Shown piece by piece: positions 14,178-25,475 of a stretch of 25,475 nucleotides of DNA. Source of the stretch: a virus. A program made the position numbers and the translations under genes. The notes beneath the pieces are model-generated. The model searched no databases. It saw only the letters and a program-made list of their open reading frames with translations, and was not told the origin of the DNA. Positions within the stretch are counted from its first letter, which is position 1. Each line of letters begins with the position of its first letter. Location: IMG/VR virus record IMGVR_UViG_3300042113_000285, positions 1 through 25,475 of that record. One strand, 5' to 3'.

Positions 14178-16363
14178 TATTTAAGATTTTTAAAAGCCGC
14201 TCTAGAAACTTTACCTGAAATCAAAGACCCCCGGCGTTCTAAATTTTTAAACGGACTATACTTTAATTTATACAAATTTTTTTGATTTTCCAAGTTCTTT
14301 GTGCTATCTTCTTCATTTCTTTTAGCAAATCCTCTATTAGACTGCTGTATTTTAGCAAATGCAACTAAAGCGGCAAAAGAAACTAACCGGTCAACGTTTA
14401 CACCAGGCTGATATGCTAGCATCTCTTTTAATAACATCGGATCTGGGATCCTTTCAATTCCAAACTCTACACTTAATGTGTTTCCTTCGGAGTCAAGTTC
14501 TTTGTCAATCTCTTCCCTTAAAAACTCAATTGCATAAGAAATAAGATGGCTTTTAAACAAAGTTCCTGTATTTTTCCAACCATACTCCTGATAAACTGTG
14601 GTATTTGAACCTAAGTCTTTTAGAAATAAAATTTGTTGTTTTGGAACAAGGTATCTTTGTTTTCTTTTTGATATCATGTACTGAATAAAAAGAGAGATGT
14701 TGTTTTCTACTACAGTCCAAGCGTTATACCATTCTATGATTTTTTCTAATTGCTCATGTGTTTTGTTAATGTCATCATAACGACCACACCAAGCGGCAAC
14801 AATTTTATCTTTTTCTATAAAAGATTCATACCCATCTGGAGTTTCACGTTTAACTTCTGTGGCAGATTTATAAACATAAATGCTGCACAAAGAATCAGAG
14901 GTGGTTGTTTTACCTTCAGAAACAGGGTCAATAGAAGCATAGTAGTTTAAAAACCCAGGATTCTTTGTTGGCCTTTCCCAAACAACTAAAACCCCAGATT
15001 TGTCTGTTGTTTGTTTATCAATGGGAAATTGAGATATTGGTAGTTTACTAGTTCTCTTTGCAACAATACCTTCTGCTGTTCTTTCTAGTTCAATACATTC
15101 ATAAGGAAAATGCTTTTCTTCTATCTTTTTAAGATGTTTAGAAATAAGACCTTGAGGAAATATAGATTCCTTTCTATAAGCAAATGCTTCCGCAATATTA
15201 GTGGGGGACTGTGATATCCTAAGTTGATACTGTTCAGGATTTAATTCTGTCTTCCATTTTGCTCTCTGGTTATAAATACTCACTAATGCTTCTGAAACTA
15301 ATGAGTTACCGTAGGCATCAATAAACGGCGGCATTGACCATTGTTCAGGTATAAATAAACCGGCTAATCCAACAGTATTATCTCCATCTAAAAGATCTGT
15401 TTCCACAGCGTATATATCATTATTAGTGGGATTTAATATCATATCCTTAAGAGGTTTGCATTGCTCTAAGTCACCAACAGAACCCGCTGCAATAAACATA
15501 CCCGTGGTAAGTTGTCCGGATGACATAGCCGGCCTTAAATACTCATACGTCTCCATCATTTTTGGAGCAATGCCGGCCTCTTCATGAAAAAAGTATGTAG
15601 TTGGTCCACCGACGCCTGTGGTAGGACTTTTTTCAAATGAAGTACCTTGTATTTTAGATTTTAAACCTTTTGTGGTTTTTCTATTTCCAACTCTAACCTC
15701 AATTTGCTGTTGCCATAAGAGAACTTTTTCTGGATTGCTTGGTCTGTACCAAGCTGTATGCTGATTAAGAAAATCTTTATATTCATCTAAAAATTTCCAA
15801 GAACCTTTATCATTTATATAGTCCTTTAAACTAGCACCAATCTTACACACACTACCTTCTTCAAACCAATATGTATTTATAATCTTACCCATATGAAAGT
15901 AAGAAGAAGCAATCTGACGTTTTTTTAAAATTGCAACATGCTTAAAATTAAGTTCCGCCAGCAACTCATATAAAGCCATATGATACTGAGCATCTCTGAC
16001 TTTAGCAAACCCATATTTCTTTTCCTCTTTATCATATATCGGAAGAAAATTAAGCCACATGTAGTAATCTCTAGTTAGATACCACACGCGATCACCATTT
16101 TTAAAAATTACACCTTTTCTACATTTTTCTTTTTGATCATCCCAATAAGTATTAAAATCTTTAGACCTAAATGGTGATGCGCAATAAAAACCTTGCTCTT
16201 CAAAGTTTCTAGATTGTTGATTAAAATCTGAAGATGTCTCATCAAATTGATATTCCCCAGGAATTTTAAAAATAGAAATTAAAAAATCAATAAACTCCTG
16301 ATCCGTGTCAAATTCTGTAACGGTCCATTTTTTATCTTCATATGTTGGTATAATTCTACTCAC
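14177..16363 (-). CDS. terL: Terminase large subunit, ATPase-nuclease (728 aa)
   Basis: This protein pumps DNA into proheads and cuts it. N-terminal ATPase: a deviant Walker A-like motif KKRQIASSY at about 147-155, a Walker B-like YFFHEEAG ending near residue 264 with the catalytic-type glutamates but His before them, and a coupling motif AAGSVGD near 292-298. C-terminal RNase H-like nuclease: ASIDP (D479), VVENN (E553) and NVDRLVSFA (D658), the expected three acidic metal ligands. At 728 aa it is long, as in crAss-like phages. It overlaps the GroES-like gene by eight bases upstream and the portal by one base downstream. No small terminase is recognisable nearby; the 172-aa gene at 17719-18237 is one candidate. 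Confidence 0.93.
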   Translation of the reverse strand: MSRIIPTYEDKKWTVTEFDTDQEFIDFLISIFKIPGEYQFDETSSDFNQQSRNFEEQGFYCASPFRSKDFNTYWDDQKEKCRKGVIFKNGDRVWYLTRDYYMWLNFLPIYDKEEKKYGFAKVRDAQYHMALYELLAELNFKHVAILKKRQIASSYFHMGKIINTYWFEEGSVCKIGASLKDYINDKGSWKFLDEYKDFLNQHTAWYRPSNPEKVLLWQQQIEVRVGNRKTTKGLKSKIQGTSFEKSPTTGVGGPTTYFFHEEAGIAPKMMETYEYLRPAMSSGQLTTGMFIAAGSVGDLEQCKPLKDMILNPTNNDIYAVETDLLDGDNTVGLAGLFIPEQWSMPPFIDAYGNSLVSEALVSIYNQRAKWKTELNPEQYQLRISQSPTNIAEAFAYRKESIFPQGLISKHLKKIEEKHFPYECIELERTAEGIVAKRTSKLPISQFPIDKQTTDKSGVLVVWERPTKNPGFLNYYASIDPVSEGKTTTSDSLCSIYVYKSATEVKRETPDGYESFIEKDKIVAAWCGRYDDINKTHEQLEKIIEWYNAWTVVENNISLFIQYMISKRKQRYLVPKQQILFLKDLGSNTTVYQEYGWKNTGTLFKSHLISYAIEFLREEIDKELDSEGNTLSVEFGIERIPDPMLLKEMLAYQPGVNVDRLVSFAALVAFAKIQQSNRGFAKRNEEDSTKNLENQKNLYKLKYSPFKNLERRGSLISGKVSRAAFKNLK

Positions 16364-16637
16364 CCACTATCACAGCTAAAATATCATTGTGAGAAATTAA
16401 CAAATGCTTTTCACCATTATGATACATTTCTTGGGCATTTGCGTAATCTACATACTGAACCAACTCCCCAACATTAATATCAGAAATTTCTTTACCAACT
16501 CCAACAACATAACCTTGACAGGTTTTTTCTTTGGCGCTGTCTGGTATAATAATAGTAGTGCCTGGAAAAAATTGTTCAGGTTTTTTTTCCAGTATCAGTA
16601 TTTTTTTCCCTATCGGAATTATCTTTTGGTTTTTCAT
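16356..16637 (-). CDS. GroES-like co-chaperonin (93 aa)
   Basis: The 93-aa sequence follows the GroES (Cpn10) pattern from end to end: KIIPIGKKILILEKK, the mobile-loop region with hydrophobic triplet (GTTIIIPDSAKEK), the GYVVGVGKE strand, a GELVQYVDYA segment matching the roof/strand region, and the terminal HNDILAVIVGE. Phage co-chaperonins such as T4 Gp31 cap host GroEL and allow large capsid proteins to fold. No GroEL gene is in the window, so the partner is presumably host GroEL and the likely client is the capsid protein. It overlaps TerL by eight bases, tying it to the packaging operon. The fold is clear; the client is inferred. Confidence 0.88.
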   Translation of the reverse strand: MKNQKIIPIGKKILILEKKPEQFFPGTTIIIPDSAKEKTCQGYVVGVGKEISDINVGELVQYVDYANAQEMYHNGEKHLLISHNDILAVIVGE

Positions 16638-16730: not shown

Positions 16731-17093
16731 TTAGGGTTTTAATAAATGTTTGTAAGTATCATAAGAGGGGTCAAAAGTTGAATAGTTTTCTGTAATTTCT
16801 TCTCCGGGATTTATATCTCTTAAAGCTTTTCCAGTGGCGCCATCTACAGTAGGATCATCAGCATGATTAATATACATAGTATCATCAATGCAATGATGAA
16901 CATTGTCACCAACAACCCAAGTGTAAGTATCCATATAAAAACTTGAAAAAGCACTAAGGGCTTCAGTATCATATTTTTTAATTTTTTGTATACTATTTTC
17001 ATAAACCAATGAATCTTTTGGAATAAATTCAGCAGCAAATAAACCTAACCCCTTACCGGCTGATTTGTCAATTAACGTTTTAAATAAAATCAT
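16731..17093 (-). CDS. Single-domain SET protein, putative lysine methyltransferase (120 aa)
   Basis: SET enzymes transfer a methyl group from S-adenosylmethionine to protein lysines. The expected signature is present in order: a glycine-rich N-terminal motif GKGLGLFA (residues 13-20), NHADDP (76-81) matching the NHxxDPN motif of the SAM pocket, and GEEITENYSTF (97-107) with the candidate catalytic Tyr104. The usual NHS is NHA here. No pre-SET or post-SET zinc cysteines are present. The length is nearly that of chlorella-virus vSET, a minimal viral SET enzyme of about 119 aa. It overlaps the 209-aa gene by ATGA and lies two bases from the next small frame, in the pre-packaging operon that also encodes an HU/IHF-like protein. 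The substrate is unknown; phage or host DNA-binding proteins are possible. Confidence 0.85.
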   Translation of the reverse strand: MILFKTLIDKSAGKGLGLFAAEFIPKDSLVYENSIQKIKKYDTEALSAFSSFYMDTYTWVVGDNVHHCIDDTMYINHADDPTVDGATGKALRDINPGEEITENYSTFDPSYDTYKHLLKP

Positions 17094-17719
17094 AACTGCT
17101 TTTTAAAATCTGTTAAGTAATTGTCATCAGTGTAATAACCGCGATTAGAATCTACAGTATAAATATTTCTATCAATTCTATAACCAGGATTATTGTTGAT
17201 TCTGACAAATGTATAAGCTTTATCAATCCAAATAATTCTATTATTGGGGTAAATAAAATAATTACCGTTGTCCATTTTAAAAACATGGCCACACTTATGC
17301 TCATATGTTTCAGAAAAATTTGTGTCCAGCATTGATTTATTCTCATGCGACCAATCAAGAGTGAACATATACACACCCAATCTTTTAACCCCACTAATTG
17401 AAATTAGTTCCGCGCTTAATGGATAAAGTCTAGCTCTTACTTGAACATCAATATACGGGCTAAAGCTATCCCAATAAACATGTTCTGTTAGTGGTAAAAC
17501 CTCTGCATCTGTTTTCCAACAAAAAGCATGAATGGGCCTACGAGTCCAGTTCACCCCATTCTCTAAAAAAGCCTCAAACAAAGGGACCATACCCTCTATT
17601 GATGCTACAGTATGTAAATTTGCTACAGTATATTCACCATGACCTCGTTCATGATTGAATAAAAACTCATTGCGAATAAAGCAAGGAGTGAGCGGGAGAT
17701 TATGATTTAAATAGGCCAT
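17090..17719 (-). CDS. Conserved-looking phage protein of unknown function (209 aa)
   Basis: The start MAYLNHNLPLTPCFIRNEFLF at 17719 overlaps the previous stop (TAATG), and its own stop overlaps the SET start (ATGA), so all three are coupled. The protein is globular, without membrane segments. It is rich in aromatic and histidine residues (FNHERGHGEYTVANLHTV, RRPIHAFCWK, CGHVFKM, YFIYPNNRIIWIDKAYTFV). The H-x-R-G-H and several other histidines could bind metal, but I cannot match a known enzyme. It lies between a possible small-terminase candidate and the SET protein. Confidence 0.7.
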   Translation of the reverse strand: MAYLNHNLPLTPCFIRNEFLFNHERGHGEYTVANLHTVASIEGMVPLFEAFLENGVNWTRRPIHAFCWKTDAEVLPLTEHVYWDSFSPYIDVQVRARLYPLSAELISISGVKRLGVYMFTLDWSHENKSMLDTNFSETYEHKCGHVFKMDNGNYFIYPNNRIIWIDKAYTFVRINNNPGYRIDRNIYTVDSNRGYYTDDNYLTDFKKQL

Positions 17720-18237
17720 TATATTTGATCATATGCTAAACCTTGACCACCTCTTACATGACTCTCTTGTTCTTGAACCATGTCATTAAAAGCACCTTTG
17801 TATGATTGTCTTATCTGTTCAAACTTAGCTGCTGCATTAACTAAAGAATTAATATTACCATCACGACCATGCTCAATAGCTGTTGTTTCCATATACTTTG
17901 CAAGTCTATCAAGCATTGATTTAATTCCTTTGTATGCTCTGTATGTTGGTGTTTCATAAAGTTTTTTACATATCAAAAGAGCATATACAATTGCATCATC
18001 CTCAACAGATTCTTGCAATTTAACCTCATCAATTATCAAATCTTCCTTTTCCACTTCTGAGACATTAAAGAAAGGATTCATATCTGGATTTGGGCAGGTC
18101 ATGTAAAATAAATACTGATAAACGGACATATATGTATCCGGGTAATTGTCCATGATTGCTTTTAAAGAACTGATTGCATAGCAATGTTCTGTTGGAATTG
18201 TCTTTCCGTTTTGTATATCAAATAATCTTATTATCAT
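17719..18237 (-). CDS. Unknown protein, small-terminase candidate by position (172 aa)
   Basis: This acidic, helical protein starts MIIRLFDIQNGKTIPTEHCY and ends with a helix-rich segment (SLVNAAAKFEQIRQSYKGAF) and a short glycine-rich tail VRGGQGLAYDQ. It overlaps the PD-(D/E)XK gene by ATGA and the 209-aa gene by one base. Its all-helical character, size and place a few genes before TerL are compatible with a small terminase subunit. There is no clear helix-turn-helix, and the SET and GroES-like genes stand between it and TerL, so that remains a guess. I recall similar GGQ-x-LAYDQ tails in Bacteroidota phages. Confidence 0.7.
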   Translation of the reverse strand: MIIRLFDIQNGKTIPTEHCYAISSLKAIMDNYPDTYMSVYQYLFYMTCPNPDMNPFFNVSEVEKEDLIIDEVKLQESVEDDAIVYALLICKKLYETPTYRAYKGIKSMLDRLAKYMETTAIEHGRDGNINSLVNAAAKFEQIRQSYKGAFNDMVQEQESHVRGGQGLAYDQI

Positions 18238-19046: not shown

Positions 19047-19343
19047 TTAGTATTTAATTTTTATATTTCCAGTTACACTTGACACCCATTCCACAGGTAA
19101 AGAAGCTGATACAGAAAGATTATCTAATATTTGTACTTCATTCTCTTCTTCAGGCAATATGTTTTCAATAGAAACTTCCTCGTCAAAAGCATTATTATCT
19201 TTTACCAAGTCCATAAAATTATCAATAAAAAAATCTTCACTGTTAATTGCTTTAGCAACTAACATTTTAGATCTAACATATTTACCCAATTCAGCATTGC
19301 TTTTAATAGATTCAATCTCGGATTCAAAAATTTCAATCTTCAT
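19047..19343 (-). CDS. Small acidic protein of unknown function (98 aa)
   Basis: The frame is open further upstream, but ATG at 19343 (MKIEIFESEIESIKSNAELG) is chosen because it overlaps the zinc-ribbon gene by only 11 bases; the upstream ATG would overlap by 74. The N-terminal half is helical, then an acidic linker (DEEVSIENILPEEENE) leads to a beta-rich C-terminus ending WVSSVTGNIKIKY. It lies three bases upstream of the PD-(D/E)XK gene and may work with it. No family recognised. Confidence 0.65.
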   Translation of the reverse strand: MKIEIFESEIESIKSNAELGKYVRSKMLVAKAINSEDFFIDNFMDLVKDNNAFDEEVSIENILPEEENEVQILDNLSVSASLPVEWVSSVTGNIKIKY

Positions 19344-19653
19344 AGTTAATATTTGTTTTAAGTGTTTGTTCGGTTTGCTCATCCATGACAGCTTTCCACT
19401 TATCAAGTGGGCAACTAGAAGATAAAGCCCGGGTTTTAAATTCTAAACTGCACCCACATTCCCCACAACAGGGCTGGGTTCCATACATAACACACTTTGA
19501 ACCTGTAGTATCAAGCCGGTCACACGTTTTACATATAGACCATCTTAAAGCAGCTTCCGCCTCTATGTGCTCCTTCTTAAAGATATTATTTTTAATCCCC
19601 TCAAGTATCTGAGTGCTATTTGCAAAAGCCCCTAAAAAATTTTTTAAGCTCAT
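19333..19653 (-). CDS. Zinc-ribbon protein (106 aa)
   Basis: Eight cysteines form a compact cluster: CKTC (C41, C44), C54, CCGECGC (C62, C63, C66, C68) and SCPLDKW (C81). The pattern R-x-x-x-CxxC ... C ... CxxCGC-hydrophobic-x-x-K ... CPxxKW recurs in small phage proteins and is typical of a zinc-binding ribbon. An N-terminal 35-residue helix precedes it. The start at 19653 overlaps the HU-like gene stop by ATGA. Such proteins may bind DNA, RNA or a protein partner; the sequence does not say which. Its location beside an HU-like protein and a nuclease suggests a DNA-related job. Confidence 0.75.
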   Translation of the reverse strand: MSLKNFLGAFANSTQILEGIKNNIFKKEHIEAEAALRWSICKTCDRLDTTGSKCVMYGTQPCCGECGCSLEFKTRALSSSCPLDKWKAVMDEQTEQTLKTNINYED

Positions 19654-20030
19654 AGTTTATCTTTTGAATATTTTTCCTTTTTGAATTTTCTTTTATCTTC
19701 TAAAATCTCCTCATACTCGGCATTTATTTTTTCAAGCTGTTCAATTTTTTCTTTTACCGCCACTGTTTTTTCATAACCATGATATGTGCTTTTAGCAAGA
19801 TTGCCCAGGATATCTTTGTTTCTTTTAATTGTTTTTTCTAGTTTTTGTTTTCGTATTACAAATGTGCCAAGACCTTCAATATAAACTCTGGTGCTAGTTA
19901 AACCACTTAAGTTTTTTCTAACCTCTGCATAAAAAAAATCTATAAAATCTGAGACAACTTTAGAATGTACTCCCACTTCTTCAGCAATATCTTTTTCAAA
20001 ATCTTTATACTTTTTGGGGTTCACTACCAA
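19650..20030 (-). CDS. HU/IHF-like DNA-binding protein (126 aa)
   Basis: Residues about 10-70 follow the HU/IHF pattern: an N-terminal helical pair (FEKDIAEEVGVHSKVVSDFI, then FYAEVRKNLSGL), the strand VYIEGLGTFVIRKQK matching the VxLxGFGTFxVR core, and a basic continuation. The proline-containing DNA-intercalating arms of standard HU are not evident. They are replaced by a long charged helical extension (KEKIEQLEKINAEYEEILED) with a lysine-rich tail. IHF-like genes near the lysis and packaging genes are a recurrent trait of crAss-like phages. It overlaps the upstream gene by 26 bases and the zinc-ribbon gene by four. It probably bends or compacts phage DNA, and is a possible target of the SET enzyme (speculative). 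Confidence 0.8.
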   Translation of the reverse strand: MVVNPKKYKDFEKDIAEEVGVHSKVVSDFIDFFYAEVRKNLSGLTSTRVYIEGLGTFVIRKQKLEKTIKRNKDILGNLAKSTYHGYEKTVAVKEKIEQLEKINAEYEEILEDKRKFKKEKYSKDKL

Positions 20031-22042: not shown

Positions 22043-22123
22043 CCCCGGCTACAATTTGACCGGGGTTGGCCCCCCGGATAAACTTAACCTCTAAACCCTA
22101 TTGCCGTGGCCAATCCAGTTTAT
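22043..22123 (+). promoter_or_regulatory. Mutually exclusive RNA hairpins before and over a GTG start
   Basis: CCGGGG (22060-22065) can pair with CCCCGG on its left (22043-22048) or with CCCCGG on its right (22072-22077). An overlapping stretch, GGGTTGGCC (22063-22071), can instead pair over nine bases, one G-U, with GGCCAATCC (22108-22116), which covers the first codons of the GTG ORF. A further seven-bp pairing joins 22078-22084 to 22117-22123. The element looks like a switch or attenuator, or the 5' end of the large RNA. Confidence 0.5.
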
Positions 22124-22444
22124 TTTCTTAAATTTAGAGTCACCAATGAGACAGGAAATGTCCATATGTTGCTCTCCTCTGCCCCTATGGCACAAGCCAA
22201 GGCAGACATTTTAGGTTTCCATGTTGGGATTCGCACCCAACCTGCCGACCTAAAAATTGGGATTCTCCCCTTAACCGATCCAATTACCGGTCAAGGTTTG
22301 AAACCCACTCACCCCTCCATTTTAGGTTTGCAAGCAAAACTAAAAGTTGGGATGGAGGTTCCCGGTCTTCAGATTGACACCAAGAACACCCACCCCGTTG
22401 GGGCCGATGGTACGACCTACTATAAGGTCGTCCAAACTGCGTAA
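22106..22444 (+). CDS. Possible GTG-start protein of unusual composition (112 aa)
   Basis: This frame opens with GTG (residues MANPVYFLKFRV) and ends in TAA. About 63 percent of codons begin with a purine, third positions favour pyrimidines, and GC content is well above that of neighbouring phage genes, which suggests coding DNA of different origin. Against it: there is no ATG at the start, no visible ribosome site, and the DNA contains strong hairpins (TTTAGGT with ACCTAAA around TTGGG/CCCAA; CCTCCAT with ATGGAGG; ACGACCT with AGGTCGT). The stop codon falls in the GTAA loop of a perfect seven-bp hairpin. The predicted protein is beta-rich with two related stretches (DILGFHVGIRTQPADLKIG and SILGLQAKLKVGMEVPG). 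It is either a small unknown protein or the 5' domain of the structured RNA. Confidence 0.45.
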   Translation: MANPVYFLKFRVTNETGNVHMLLSSAPMAQAKADILGFHVGIRTQPADLKIGILPLTDPITGQGLKPTHPSILGLQAKLKVGMEVPGLQIDTKNTHPVGADGTTYYKVVQTA

Positions 22445-22514
22445 GCAGTTTTACACCAAAAGACACTGCGCATAGTTACTTGACCTTTCAAGTACTATGT
22501 GCAGTCTTCTTTGT

Positions 22515-22549
22515 AATGCACCATAACTCACTTCCCAAGGGTGAGCAGT
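22515..22549 (+). repeat. Covarying hairpin repeat, copy 1
   Basis: AATGCACCAT is followed by a five-bp stem CTCAC/GTGAG around the loop TTCCCAAGG and then CAGT. Copy 2 at 22741-22774 keeps the flanks and loop exactly but has a different, still complementary stem. Confidence 0.8.
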
Positions 22550-22723
22550 TGTAATAAATAAAGAAGAGAGAAAGTAACCAATGTTATCCTTTATTAATTG
22601 GTTATGAACACCTTGATAGATTTACAGGTAATGCTGGTTTAAATAGAATCTATTTTGATGAACGTGTATCTTCTTTATGCCTTTCAGATAGTAAATAAAG
22701 CTATGCTACTGATTGGTATTACA

Positions 22724-22737
22724 ACTGAGTGCAGAGG
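22724..22737 (+). repeat. Direct repeat ACTGAGTGCAGAGG, copy 1
   Basis: Fourteen identical bases recur at 22830-22843. Both copies, and the shorter GTGCAG at 22499-22504, are followed within 20 bases by TGCACC or TGTACC, which can pair back to GTGCA. Confidence 0.75.
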
Positions 22738-22740
22738 AAT

Positions 22741-22774
22741 AATGCACCATTCCTGATTCCCAAGGTCAGGCAGT
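22741..22774 (+). repeat. Covarying hairpin repeat, copy 2
   Basis: AATGCACCAT, stem CCTGA/TCAGG around the identical nine-base loop TTCCCAAGG, then CAGT. Compared with copy 1 (22515-22549), the two stem strands changed together while loop and flanks stayed fixed. Confidence 0.8.
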
Positions 22775-22829
22775 ATGTGACCGTGTAGTGTCTTAACTTA
22801 TCCGTGATGTAGAAATACAGGATAAGCAT

Positions 22830-22843
22830 ACTGAGTGCAGAGG
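22830..22843 (+). repeat. Direct repeat ACTGAGTGCAGAGG, copy 2
   Basis: Identical to 22724-22737, 106 bases downstream. It precedes TGTACC at 22848-22853, which here forms the base of the 18-bp domain helix. Confidence 0.75.
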
Positions 22844-23700
22844 GTGATGTACCTTAATTGTAGTCCAGTGACGCGTTATAACGTGCTTGACTAGGCTAGC
22901 TGAACATAGGTCAAGTTTACCAGCAGAGGACTACAATTAGGTGCAAATAAATTCATAATTTTTTGGTTATGAGTGTTTTAAATTGTGGATGGCAACACCC
23001 CCATAAAAACACTAACTAAAACAAGAGTGAATCTGCCGTTACATAATAGAATATATATAGCTATACCCAAACCAAGGTGGCTATATTAGCATAGCATAAG
23101 TGCTGATGAAACAATGCAAGTATAGGATACTTATTATCTTACACCTAGGTTGGAAGACCTTGACAAAAAACTTAATAACTTCTCAAGTTGTTGAGAGCAC
23201 CAGTTCTTTGTAAAACTTATGTTAGTACCATTGGTAGCAAAATCTAACAGAGCTTATATCAAAGTTTAGGTGTAAAACACAAACCTTAGATGCTGGTGAG
23301 TTAAACCAGATAGTTATCCTTAAAGTAAGAATAGGGATAATGAATGTAGCGTTCTTACAAGTAGGTGTTTTCTACTTATCCAAGTATCTTCATATAAGGT
23401 TGCAAACTTTATGAAGCTCTATGAGTTATGTTTAAGTAAGTTTTGTCAGGTTGGATACTTCCTGGCATTAACAACCCATAGGTTGGCTAGTTAAATAGTA
23501 AAAACAAATAATCTTGACGAAGGTTATGCTACTATTTAATGAATAAGTACACAAGTTAAAACCCTCAGAGTTTAAATACTCATGGTGTGTACGTTAAACT
23601 ACTCTAAGTAGTTACTAATTTAACAAGGTGAATCTTACTACCGTTAAGTGTAAGAACAATTAAATCCCAACTGGCAAGTTGTAATAATGTGTAAAAAAAA

Positions 23701-23955
23701 ATGAAAACAAGTTTGATTTCAGATGTAATTACATTAATGTTTTTGTATAGGATTCTTTTTCAAAAGGGCATTACAGATGATGTTGATTTAATGAGATGTA
23801 ATATTCTTGCTATGGAAATAGCACGAAATGAGCACACTGTTGAATCTATTAAAAAAACATCGGCTTATTTGGGTTGTAACAATGATGTTCCAACGTCAGA
23901 TGAATTTCTACAAAGTTTACTTAATAAAAAAGAAGAAATAATAAAAAAACCTTAA
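23701..23955 (+). CDS. Small helical protein of unknown function (84 aa)
   Basis: The ATG at 23701 follows a run of A (AAAAAAAA), the usual start context in this genome, and lies 19 bases after the last hairpin of the large RNA, so RNA and gene may share a transcript. The protein is mainly helical and soluble: SDVITLMFLYRILFQKGI, then RCNILAMEIARNEHTVESIK, and a lysine-rich end. No motif or family is recognised. It starts a run of four tightly spaced small genes (two-base gap, then overlaps). Confidence 0.6.
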   Translation: MKTSLISDVITLMFLYRILFQKGITDDVDLMRCNILAMEIARNEHTVESIKKTSAYLGCNNDVPTSDEFLQSLLNKKEEIIKKP

Positions 23956-23957
23956 AG

Positions 23958-24140
23958 ATGAGATACATTATCACTCCGTTATACTATGCATCACTGCATG
24001 TATTACTATTCATTGTCTACACAATGCCTTGTTTATTGCTATTTGATTTGATTATGTCATTTGAATACAATGGACACAAAGCAGAATATTTTCATACTAA
24101 ACTCCAAAATCTTTTAGAAACAAAAATTCATAAACTATGA
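23958..24140 (+). CDS. Small membrane protein (60 aa)
   Basis: Residues about 6-34 (TPLYYASLHVLLFIVYTMPC and LLLFDLIMSF) form a strongly hydrophobic segment, long enough for one kinked or two short membrane helices, followed by a soluble charged tail of about 25 residues (NGHKAEYFHTKLQNLLETK). Its stop overlaps the next start by ATGA. It could be a holin-like or superinfection-exclusion protein, but nothing specific shows this. Confidence 0.6.
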   Translation: MRYIITPLYYASLHVLLFIVYTMPCLLLFDLIMSFEYNGHKAEYFHTKLQNLLETKIHKL

Positions 24141-24361
24141 ACGAAATTAAAAAATTGCCAATGCCTCTTCAGATAGTTGCATGGCCTATTATTGCAGGTT
24201 TGATGGTTATAAGCTGGGACTTATTTTTAGCTTTCACAATCTCTGCAATTACAAGCATTACCTTTTATGACATTATGGATTCTGTACCACTTTGGGTTAT
24301 GAATTTCTTTTTGTTTGTGGGCTGTTTAGTTGCTGTTGGTTCTTGGTTATGGGAAGAATAA
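24137..24361 (+). CDS. Small membrane protein (74 aa)
   Basis: Two or three hydrophobic segments span most of the protein: IVAWPIIAGLMVISWDLFLA with TISAITSITFY, then VPLWVMNFFLFVGCLVAVG near the end, with a short charged C-terminus. The N-terminus is short and positively charged (MNEIKK), suggesting it faces the cytoplasm. It overlaps both neighbours, so the cluster is translated together. Holin is possible from size and topology alone, but the amidase is far away on the other strand. Confidence 0.6.
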   Translation: MNEIKKLPMPLQIVAWPIIAGLMVISWDLFLAFTISAITSITFYDIMDSVPLWVMNFFLFVGCLVAVGSWLWEE

Positions 24362-24549
24362 AAACTTTTAGAACCGTGAAACTTCATCCTGTACAGTATG
24401 AAGCACAACATGATAAGACATTTATTAATGCTAATAATGTCAAGTGTATGCACTATAAAGGTTACTTTATAGAAAACTGCTCAACTAAAAAAGAAGCAGA
24501 ATCAAGAATAGATAGCTATAATAATCAAGAGTTACTTATTAATTTATAA
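24349..24549 (+). CDS. Small soluble protein (66 aa)
   Basis: The frame is open upstream to 24292, but ATG at 24349 (MGRIKTFRTVKLHPVQYEAQ) is preferred because it overlaps the previous gene by only 13 bases and avoids an out-of-frame hydrophobic stretch. The C-terminal part, MHYKGYFIENCSTKKEAESR followed by IDSY, resembles short phage proteins with a KGYxIxxxxxKxEAxxxIDxY pattern, perhaps a beta-hairpin plus helix. No function known. Confidence 0.55.
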   Translation: MGRIKTFRTVKLHPVQYEAQHDKTFINANNVKCMHYKGYFIENCSTKKEAESRIDSYNNQELLINL

Positions 24550-24559
24550 TTGAAAGTCT

Positions 24560-24710
24560 AAAATAACTACAGCGCATGAGGGGTGTTTACGAGATCTGAT
24601 CACTTATTGCACCTACATAGGCTTAAAACTTAAAAAAGGTTTTTATCTCATTTTGTTTGTGAGATATTTTAAGTTTTCAGGCCACTGAAACATAGCGCTG
24701 TAGTTTTTTT
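24560..24710 (+). ncRNA. Structured RNA or elaborate terminator (about 150 nt)
   Basis: An 11-bp perfect helix, AACTACAGCGC (24565-24575) with GCGCTGTAGTT (24695-24705), extended by A/T pairs beyond one mismatch, closes the element and leads straight into a T-run. Inside is a second perfect 11-bp helix (24625-24635 with 24667-24677), extended outward through GGC/GCC and inward by TATCTCA/TGAGATA (24644-24650, 24660-24666). A GGTG/CACC hairpin (24582-24585, 24610-24613) forms a third arm. The three-way layout with a terminator-like end fits a small independent RNA. No ORF fits here. The remaining bases of the gap, 24711-24747, are AT-rich without features. Confidence 0.65.
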
Positions 24711-24747
24711 AGACAATTTTTTTTAATCTTTAAGTTTTAAAAATCTT

Positions 24748-24990
24748 ATGAAAAGTTTTTTCTTTCCAATCCTATGCTCAGTCATTGGGATAATTCTTAC
24801 AACATTTTTAATTGTATGTTCAATTGCATATTCAATATTCCATACTTATTCAACATGGGATTTTGTTTTGTGGCTTACAATATTAGTGGTTGTTGATCTT
24901 ATTTTTGTTAGAATATTTATTCTCTGCAAAAGAGAATCTAAACTACAAAATGAAAAGTTGTTTAAATCTAATACTTTTAAAAGGTTTTAA
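24748..24990 (+). CDS. Small two-helix membrane protein (80 aa)
   Basis: Two hydrophobic stretches, FFFPILCSVIGIILTTFLIV (residues 4-23, continuing to about 31) and WDFVLWLTILVVVDLIFVRI (about 37-56), are followed by a basic soluble tail (CKRESKLQNEKLFKSNTFKR). The start follows an A/T-rich leader after the structured RNA. Two membrane helices and a positive tail are compatible with a class II holin, but also with many phage membrane proteins. Confidence 0.6.
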   Translation: MKSFFFPILCSVIGIILTTFLIVCSIAYSIFHTYSTWDFVLWLTILVVVDLIFVRIFILCKRESKLQNEKLFKSNTFKRF

Positions 24991-25003
24991 TTAAACAAAG
25001 CAT

Positions 25004-25114
25004 AGTCAGGTGGCGGAATTGGTAGACGCAGACCGCTGAAAGTTAAGTGGTTCAGAGTTGTTCGTCTGATTGCCTAAACGAGTAAACATACAGGTTCGAA
25101 TCCTGTCCTGACTA
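25004..25114 (+). tRNA. Atypical Leu-type tRNA gene, expanded anticodon and variable regions
   Basis: The acceptor stem AGTCAGG/CCTGACT (7 bp), D arm GCG-GAATTGGTAGA-CGC in the Leu style, and T arm ACAGG-TTCGAAT-CCTGT are all intact. CCA is not encoded. The length is about 110 nt against 85-87 for a normal tRNA-Leu. The five bases after position 26 (GACCG) do not pair with the expected partner. Instead GACCGCT can pair with AGTGGTT (25031-25037/25046-25052), or CTGAA with TTCAG (25036-25040/25051-25055), giving loops larger than seven. The loop contains GAA and TAA, so the anticodon is uncertain (TAA would suit Leu). A long variable arm lies near 25058-25085. Confidence 0.7.
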
Positions 25115-25160
25115 CTAAAATTTTATGTAAACAACTTAAACCAAATAAAAAACACACATT

Positions 25161-25475
25161 ATGGGCTTAGACATGTTCGCTTACAGATTAAAGGGTTTCA
25201 ACCCTTCATCTCCAGTTGATTTCGGCAACGAGGTTCAAGTTCTGAGAGAAAGTGAAGAAAATTCACAGGAACCAGAGGATTTCTTTTACTGGAGAAAACA
25301 CCCAAACCTCCACGGTTTGATGGAGCAAATTTACAGGGAAAAAGGAGGGAAGGAGGCAGCATTCAATTGTGTTCCTGTTCAACTTACCCAGGAAGATTTG
25401 GACCGAATTGCTGCCGTCATTATTGATGACGAACTTCCACTCACCGAAGGTTTCTTTTTTGGGGAATCAACGGAC
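25161..25475 (+). CDS. MGLDM-family phage protein, cut by window edge
   Basis: An ATG at 25161 opens 105 codons without a stop. The protein begins MGLDMFAYRLKGF, then YWRKHPNLHGLMEQIYREKG, FNCVPVQLTQEDL and a final LPLTEGFFFG. This matches a small protein common in phages and some bacteria (MGLDMxxY ... WRKxxxLHGWM ... NC-x-V-L-x-DL ... LPxTxGFFFG), often labelled phosphoglycerate kinase in databases without evidence. Its biochemical function is not known. The spacing of W, H, N-C and the GFFFG motif is fully kept. It lies just downstream of the tRNA-like gene and may start a new operon. Confidence 0.8.
   Translation, partial: MGLDMFAYRLKGFNPSSPVDFGNEVQVLRESEENSQEPEDFFYWRKHPNLHGLMEQIYREKGGKEAAFNCVPVQLTQEDLDRIAAVIIDDELPLTEGFFFGESTD

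Follow-up and report, generated by a model that had tools for sequence, protein, structure and literature searches.

A minimal SET-domain protein of an environmental crAss-like phage lineage and its recurrent pairing with a neighboring gene

What might a stand-alone SET-domain protein of 120 residues do in a phage, and which protein might be its partner? The question is raised by a single open reading frame in a virus fragment of 25,475 bases, an IMG/VR record (IMGVR_UViG_3300042113_000285) that we analyzed whole and refer to here as the window. Very little is known, as far as we are aware, about the methylation of proteins by phages, and we know of no candidate target for a phage SET enzyme so far. 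An earlier note on this DNA had read the frame as a minimal SET methyltransferase and had suggested, as its target, an HU-like protein encoded in the same operon.

The window is a fragment of an environmental crAss-like phage lineage. Three of its proteins, TerL, the portal and the major head protein, fall into PHROG head and packaging families; the TerL shares about 22-25% identity with terminases of Crassvirales. The SET gene lies in a minus-strand operon that encodes an amidase, a 122-aa protein, the HU-like protein, a 106-aa protein, a PD-(D/E)XK nuclease, a 172-aa protein, a protein that we call X, the SET protein, a GroES-like protein, TerL and the portal (Table 1). This layout is common to some 80 related contigs, most of them without X and SET. 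The GroES-like gene, just upstream of TerL, is kept in most crAss-like relatives, including most of those without SET, and was not found in the L091/L106 clade. The 106-aa protein (19333-19653, minus strand) is Cys-rich and conserved beside the HU-like gene; it weakly resembles DUF6171 and is possibly a zinc-binding protein.

Table 1. Features of the SET locus in the window (positions are those of the 25,475-base record).
Feature	Position	Strand	Evidence
GroES-like co-chaperonin, next gene downstream of SET	16356..16637	-	PF00166 E=1.9e-13
SET-domain protein, predicted protein-lysine methyltransferase, 120 aa	16731..17093	-	PF00856, AF2/vSET fold match, dN/dS about 0.2
SET motif IV GEEITENY with catalytic Tyr104, residues 97-104	16782..16805	-	E99 and Y104 invariant in 33 relatives
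SET motif III NHADDP, SAM-binding/active site, residues 76-81	16851..16868	-	N76 and H77 invariant in 33 relatives
SET motif I GKGLG, SAM-binding GxG, residues 13-17	17043..17057	-	G15 and G17 invariant in 33 relatives
4-nt ATGA overlap of X stop and SET start	17090..17093	-	sequence
Protein X, 209 aa, PHROG 3704; conserved partner gene of SET	17090..17719	-	phrog_3704 E=1.8e-44
Conserved crAss-like operon protein, 172 aa, upstream of X	17719..18237	-	synteny in TerL relatives
HU/IHF-like protein with lysine-rich tail	19650..20030	-	PF00216 22.5 bits vs cut-off 22.4

The frame, which starts with ATG, encodes a SET domain that is complete and has its catalytic core intact, and this is not a chance occurrence. 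It matches Pfam PF00856 with E=4.8e-10 and 40.2 bits, above the curated cut-off of 22.4, and the alignment is full-length, residues 15-104 corresponding to positions 1-104 of the 105 in the profile. A six-frame search of the whole record found SET at this single place. All three motifs singled out in the earlier note are present, and 33 relatives show no variation at G15, G17, N76, H77, I94, E99 and Y104. The GxG, the NH and the catalytic Tyr of motifs I, III and IV also line up with MLL3. Every one of the SET relatives matches PF00856, and a profile built from them finds MLL, NSD2, EZH2 and vSET from sequence alone. PHROGs and NCBIfam gave no SET family assignment, and a defense-system library gave no match for either SET or X.

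The AF2 model of the SET protein (mean pLDDT 92.1, pTM 0.79) has the SET fold, and a PDB fold search with it returned 306 matches at E<=0.001, led by vSET (3kma_A; E=2.4e-7, TM 0.59/0.66) and followed by MLL1, Set7 and SET8. The two checks proposed earlier, an HMM search against SET families and a structure prediction, thus both uphold the reading as a phage-encoded SET protein. The protein is minimal in size and lacks pre-SET and post-SET zinc modules; there is no cysteine-rich post-SET in its 120 residues. In wider comparisons among sister contigs its dN/dS is 0.18-0.25, which implies that the gene is under purifying selection. One position departs from the usual pattern. NHADDP aligns with NHSCAPN of MLL3, and the usual NHSxxPN reads NHADDPT in the window, with the final Asn replaced by Thr (by Ser in the sister contigs); because of this replacement after the Pro, full SET activity is likely but not assured. 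We conclude that the protein is a further member of an already known family and, as predicted, probably a working protein-lysine methyltransferase.

A bacterial host has no nucleosomes, and a histone target in a eukaryotic host does not apply to the window SET, which is carried with TerL, portal and MCP genes of crAss-like families. How far, then, does its likeness to vSET of the chlorella virus PBCV-1 (A612L; PDB 1n3j, 3kma) extend? vSET is likewise a minimal stand-alone SET of about 120 aa, and the claim of nearly equal size was accurate (119 aa in 1n3j and 120 aa in the window). It matches the profile of SET relatives significantly (E=4.2e-15); in the fold alignment, identity between the two proteins is about 22%. 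The target of vSET, according to the PDB records, is host histone H3 Lys27, whereas the window SET has a phage protein, X, as its neighbor. The two are therefore alike at most in fold and size.

Stand-alone SET proteins of bacteria and archaea (Methanosarcina mazei Go1-SET, and relatives in WWE3, Lokiarchaeota, Nanoarchaeota and Bacteroidota) have the same domain and motifs, and the WWE3 relative, L013, is 36% identical to the window SET. SET proteins in both groups are established (PMC3980110), and to call the enzymes chiefly eukaryotic, as had been done, was too strong. That they are uncommon in phages holds among deposited phages, with 7 of 50,697 records, though SET is carried by dozens of environmental viral contigs. 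Some bacterial loci (L017, L018, L024) have two or three SET genes in tandem.

The proposal that SET acts on the HU-like protein was right in its premise: an HU/IHF-like protein with a lysine-rich tail is encoded in the same operon, although its PF00216 match is borderline. Its distribution, however, is not that of SET. Among 73 crAss-like operon loci spanning the 122-aa gene to TerL, HU is present in all 73. SET is present in 20, and 19 of these have X as well; one further locus, L074, has X without SET. One SET among the 20 belongs to a second, different lineage; it lies in a crAss-like contig (L086:4984-5307) just upstream of the amidase gene, away from X. The lysine fraction of the HU tail is 0.216 with SET (7 unique sequences) and 0.220 without it (46 unique), and the HU and SET genes are not adjacent. 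The co-occurrence and the equal tail lysine content speak against the HU-like protein as the substrate and remove the reason to expect its methylation. In its favor, lysine makes up 22% of the HU tail, and in archaea there is a precedent in Go1-SET, for which the DNA-binding protein MC1-alpha is a substrate (Manzur and Zhou 2005, reviewed in PMC3980110). Nevertheless, we find it barely credible that DNA packing is tuned by SET through methylation of the phage HU/IHF-like protein or of host HU.

Gene pairing points to X, not to the HU-like protein, as the partner of SET, and this is our best reading of the locus. The ATGA shared by the X stop and the SET start suggests that translation of the two genes may be coupled. 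We examined adjacency by searching with SET alone, without reference to X, using four queries. SET adjoined X in 4 of 8 viral loci found with the window SET, in 11 of 12 found with the SET of L007, in 12 of 13 found with that of L158 and in 30 of 30 found with that of Synechococcus myovirus RN05-S, counts that include related contigs and so do not represent independent trials. The four window-query loci without X in the stretch examined are other SET lineages, and the thirteenth L158-query locus is cut off by the contig end. Among cellular SET relatives, unlike in the window, X was near SET in none of 12 loci.

The pairing spans several unrelated aquatic phage groups, with crAss-like phages and T4-like myoviruses among them. 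The paired genes are on the same strand, in most cases overlapping by 1 to 13 nt, and both orders occur: X comes first (X-SET) in crAss-like phages and in some further contigs, and SET comes first (SET-X) in Synechococcus myoviruses, among others. In the Synechococcus myoviruses S-B05, S-B43, RN05-S, RB11-B, Sf-CH1b and SynMITS9220M01, a SET-like gene directly overlaps the X gene as in the window, but in the opposite order. Their SETs are about 30% identical to the window SET; for X, identity is about 63% in S-B05, RN05-S and Sf-CH1b. The Sf-CH1b record names the two products "SET domain-containing protein-lysine N-methyltransferase" and "PurM protein".

From the side of X, the picture is different. 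At loci with enough flank on both sides, the X genes that resemble the window's have SET as a neighbor in 32 of 74 cases, those that resemble the X of L007 in 1 of 73 and those that resemble the pelagiphage X in 0 of 64; contig L228 has a pelagiphage-type X with SET, but its flank is short. SET is the commonest X neighbor among those that occur on both sides. X is thus common without SET, and the SET of these lineages is rarely away from X. Because SET is missing next to the majority of X genes, X does not need SET. In crAss-like contigs of the L007 group, X is present without SET, flanked by the nuclease gene and the 172-aa gene; in L007 itself, SET fills the slot right after X. We regard X as the older and far commoner gene and SET as an optional addition to it.

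If the two genes had simply traveled together, their trees should agree. They conflict. In the SET tree, the window clade groups with the L007-type SETs of crAss-like phages; in the X tree, it falls inside an X clade that also includes contigs with the SET-X order, such as L146. Pairwise identities follow the same pattern: the window and L146 are 32% identical in SET and 73% in X, L188 and L007 are 70% identical in SET and 32% in X, and L011 and L012 are 54% identical in SET and 34% in X. AU tests with better-placed outgroups (the first groupings were uninformative, being compatible as unrooted splits) rejected the X-tree grouping imposed on SET (p=0.007) and two SET-tree groupings imposed on X (p=0.0003 and p=0.0045); as the groupings were chosen after the trees had been seen, these p values are indicative. 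In L188 (1486-2667), a contig with a gene read as T4-gp32-like, a SET of crAss-like type stands beside an X of S-SSM5 type; here SET appears to have moved between distant phage groups. It appears from these sequence comparisons that SET landed beside X, or that X was exchanged beside SET, several times, and it is this repeated re-pairing that speaks most strongly for a functional link between the two.

What is X? The family is widespread in aquatic phages, with 112 phage records (Synechococcus, Prochlorococcus, Pelagibacter, Flavobacterium and others) in addition to viral contigs. The database names for PHROG 3704 are "ferredoxin" and, in cyanophage and pelagiphage records, "PurM". Neither name, PurM (phosphoribosylaminoimidazole synthetase, AIR synthetase) or ferredoxin, is supported by Pfam, NCBIfam or PDB comparisons. 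When 26 members were compared with Pfam at E<=0.05, only two weak and unrelated matches appeared, with no PurM/AIRS and no ferredoxin; the window X had no Pfam match at that threshold and no NCBIfam match, and no PDB entry matched X significantly by sequence or fold. The AF2 model of X (pLDDT 73, pTM 0.72) has a mostly beta core and a disordered C-terminal tail. Its top PDB fold matches, none of them significant, are tandem SH3-like/Tudor barrels (SETDB1, FMRP, Spindlin), the SETDB1 tandem Tudor coming first at E=0.1 and a TM of only 0.22. The strand order in the model suggests an internal duplication of two SH3-like barrels, but a profile comparison of the two halves of X found nothing.

X is very conserved (dN/dS about 0.05 in sister contigs), and SET evolves faster. 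K142 is the only lysine that is invariant in a wide alignment of X, and it is equally invariant without SET. No lysine column of X tracks the presence of SET convincingly, and none is gained where SET is present. A few X genes have other enzymes as neighbors. In Prochlorococcus phage P-RSM4 (L399:1902-3175), a 2OG-Fe(II) oxygenase gene lies directly before X and overlaps it by one base; a gene of the same kind lies directly before X in L245 (2519-3687), and a cupin gene directly after X in L148 and L154. The P-RSM4 overlap raises the possibility that X recruits other modifying enzymes elsewhere, and the modifying enzyme that serves X may differ from phage to phage.

Overall, we consider it rather probable, from the arrangement and re-pairing of the genes, that the stand-alone SET methyltransferase acts jointly with X, the product of the gene that it overlaps. 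The two proteins would be co-translated and meet; SET would then methylate a lysine of X, or X would hold SET on a third target, and the methylation would tune what X does during infection. The most substantial alternative is that the two genes, early or accessory ones, are independent of each other and have a favored insertion slot in common or travel together, the target of SET being some unrelated protein of the host, for instance a ribosomal or translation protein. That X so often lacks SET and that none of its lysines is linked to SET favor this alternative and count against a joint action of SET and X. So do the other neighbors of X, the 2OG-Fe(II) oxygenase of P-RSM4 and the 2OG-oxygenase or cupin genes of a few contigs, which imply that the X site may be simply a hot spot. 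However, SET stays next to X, on one side or the other, across different phage groups and genome positions, and what the trees show is re-pairing, not joint travel. Enzymes other than SET are also rare next to X: among 220 unique X sequences, a set partly gathered through SET searches, 4 have a non-SET enzyme (2 oxygenases and 2 cupins) and 57 have SET. We therefore regard independence of the two genes as unlikely, although by no means negligible.

The Thr of motif III (Ser elsewhere in the window clade), a further point against the favored reading of a methyltransferase acting with X, raises another alternative, in which SET is degenerate or non-catalytic and is kept as a binding module for X. 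The faster evolution of SET would fit such a role. Its GxG and NH motifs, E99 and Tyr104 are nevertheless invariant in the 33 relatives, and the AF2 model is a confident SET fold; loss of catalysis strikes us as quite improbable. The most far-reaching version of a joint action, and decidedly a long shot, would make SET and X a "writer and partner" module: a tandem SH3/Tudor-like X, either modified by SET or reading the lysine methylation that SET writes, would bring a chromatin-like logic between phage and bacterium, traded between unrelated phage groups.

A conserved, re-paired neighbor gene makes X a concrete first candidate for the substrate or partner of a phage SET enzyme, and the pair is present in cultured phages, the Synechococcus phages. 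The "PurM" or ferredoxin annotation of X, widespread in environmental data, is now in question. X has been counted as a purine-synthesis auxiliary metabolic gene, "PurM" (PMC6293099, whose CL131 gene is a member of the PHROG 3704 family), and similarly named purM genes appear in PMC3037559 and PMC7678222. Should X prove instead to be the center of a protein-modification system, the presence of a gene so common in aquatic phages would have to be explained anew. The module appears to be undescribed in the open-access literature, the scope of our search: we found no description there of the recurrent pairing and nothing relevant on SET proteins of phages or cyanophages, which is not proof of absence. 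One candidate report, PMC10172136, contains only "C2-set" immunoglobulin domains.

Beyond the operon, the window switches strand, and positions 22106-25475 (plus strand) hold short ORFs, some of which apparently encode membrane proteins; none has a PHROG match save a single weak one. Within this region, a stretch of 111 bases (25004-25114, plus strand), which is absent from the ARAGORN output, matches an Rfam tRNA model with 40.1 bits and is perhaps a tRNA gene with an insertion.
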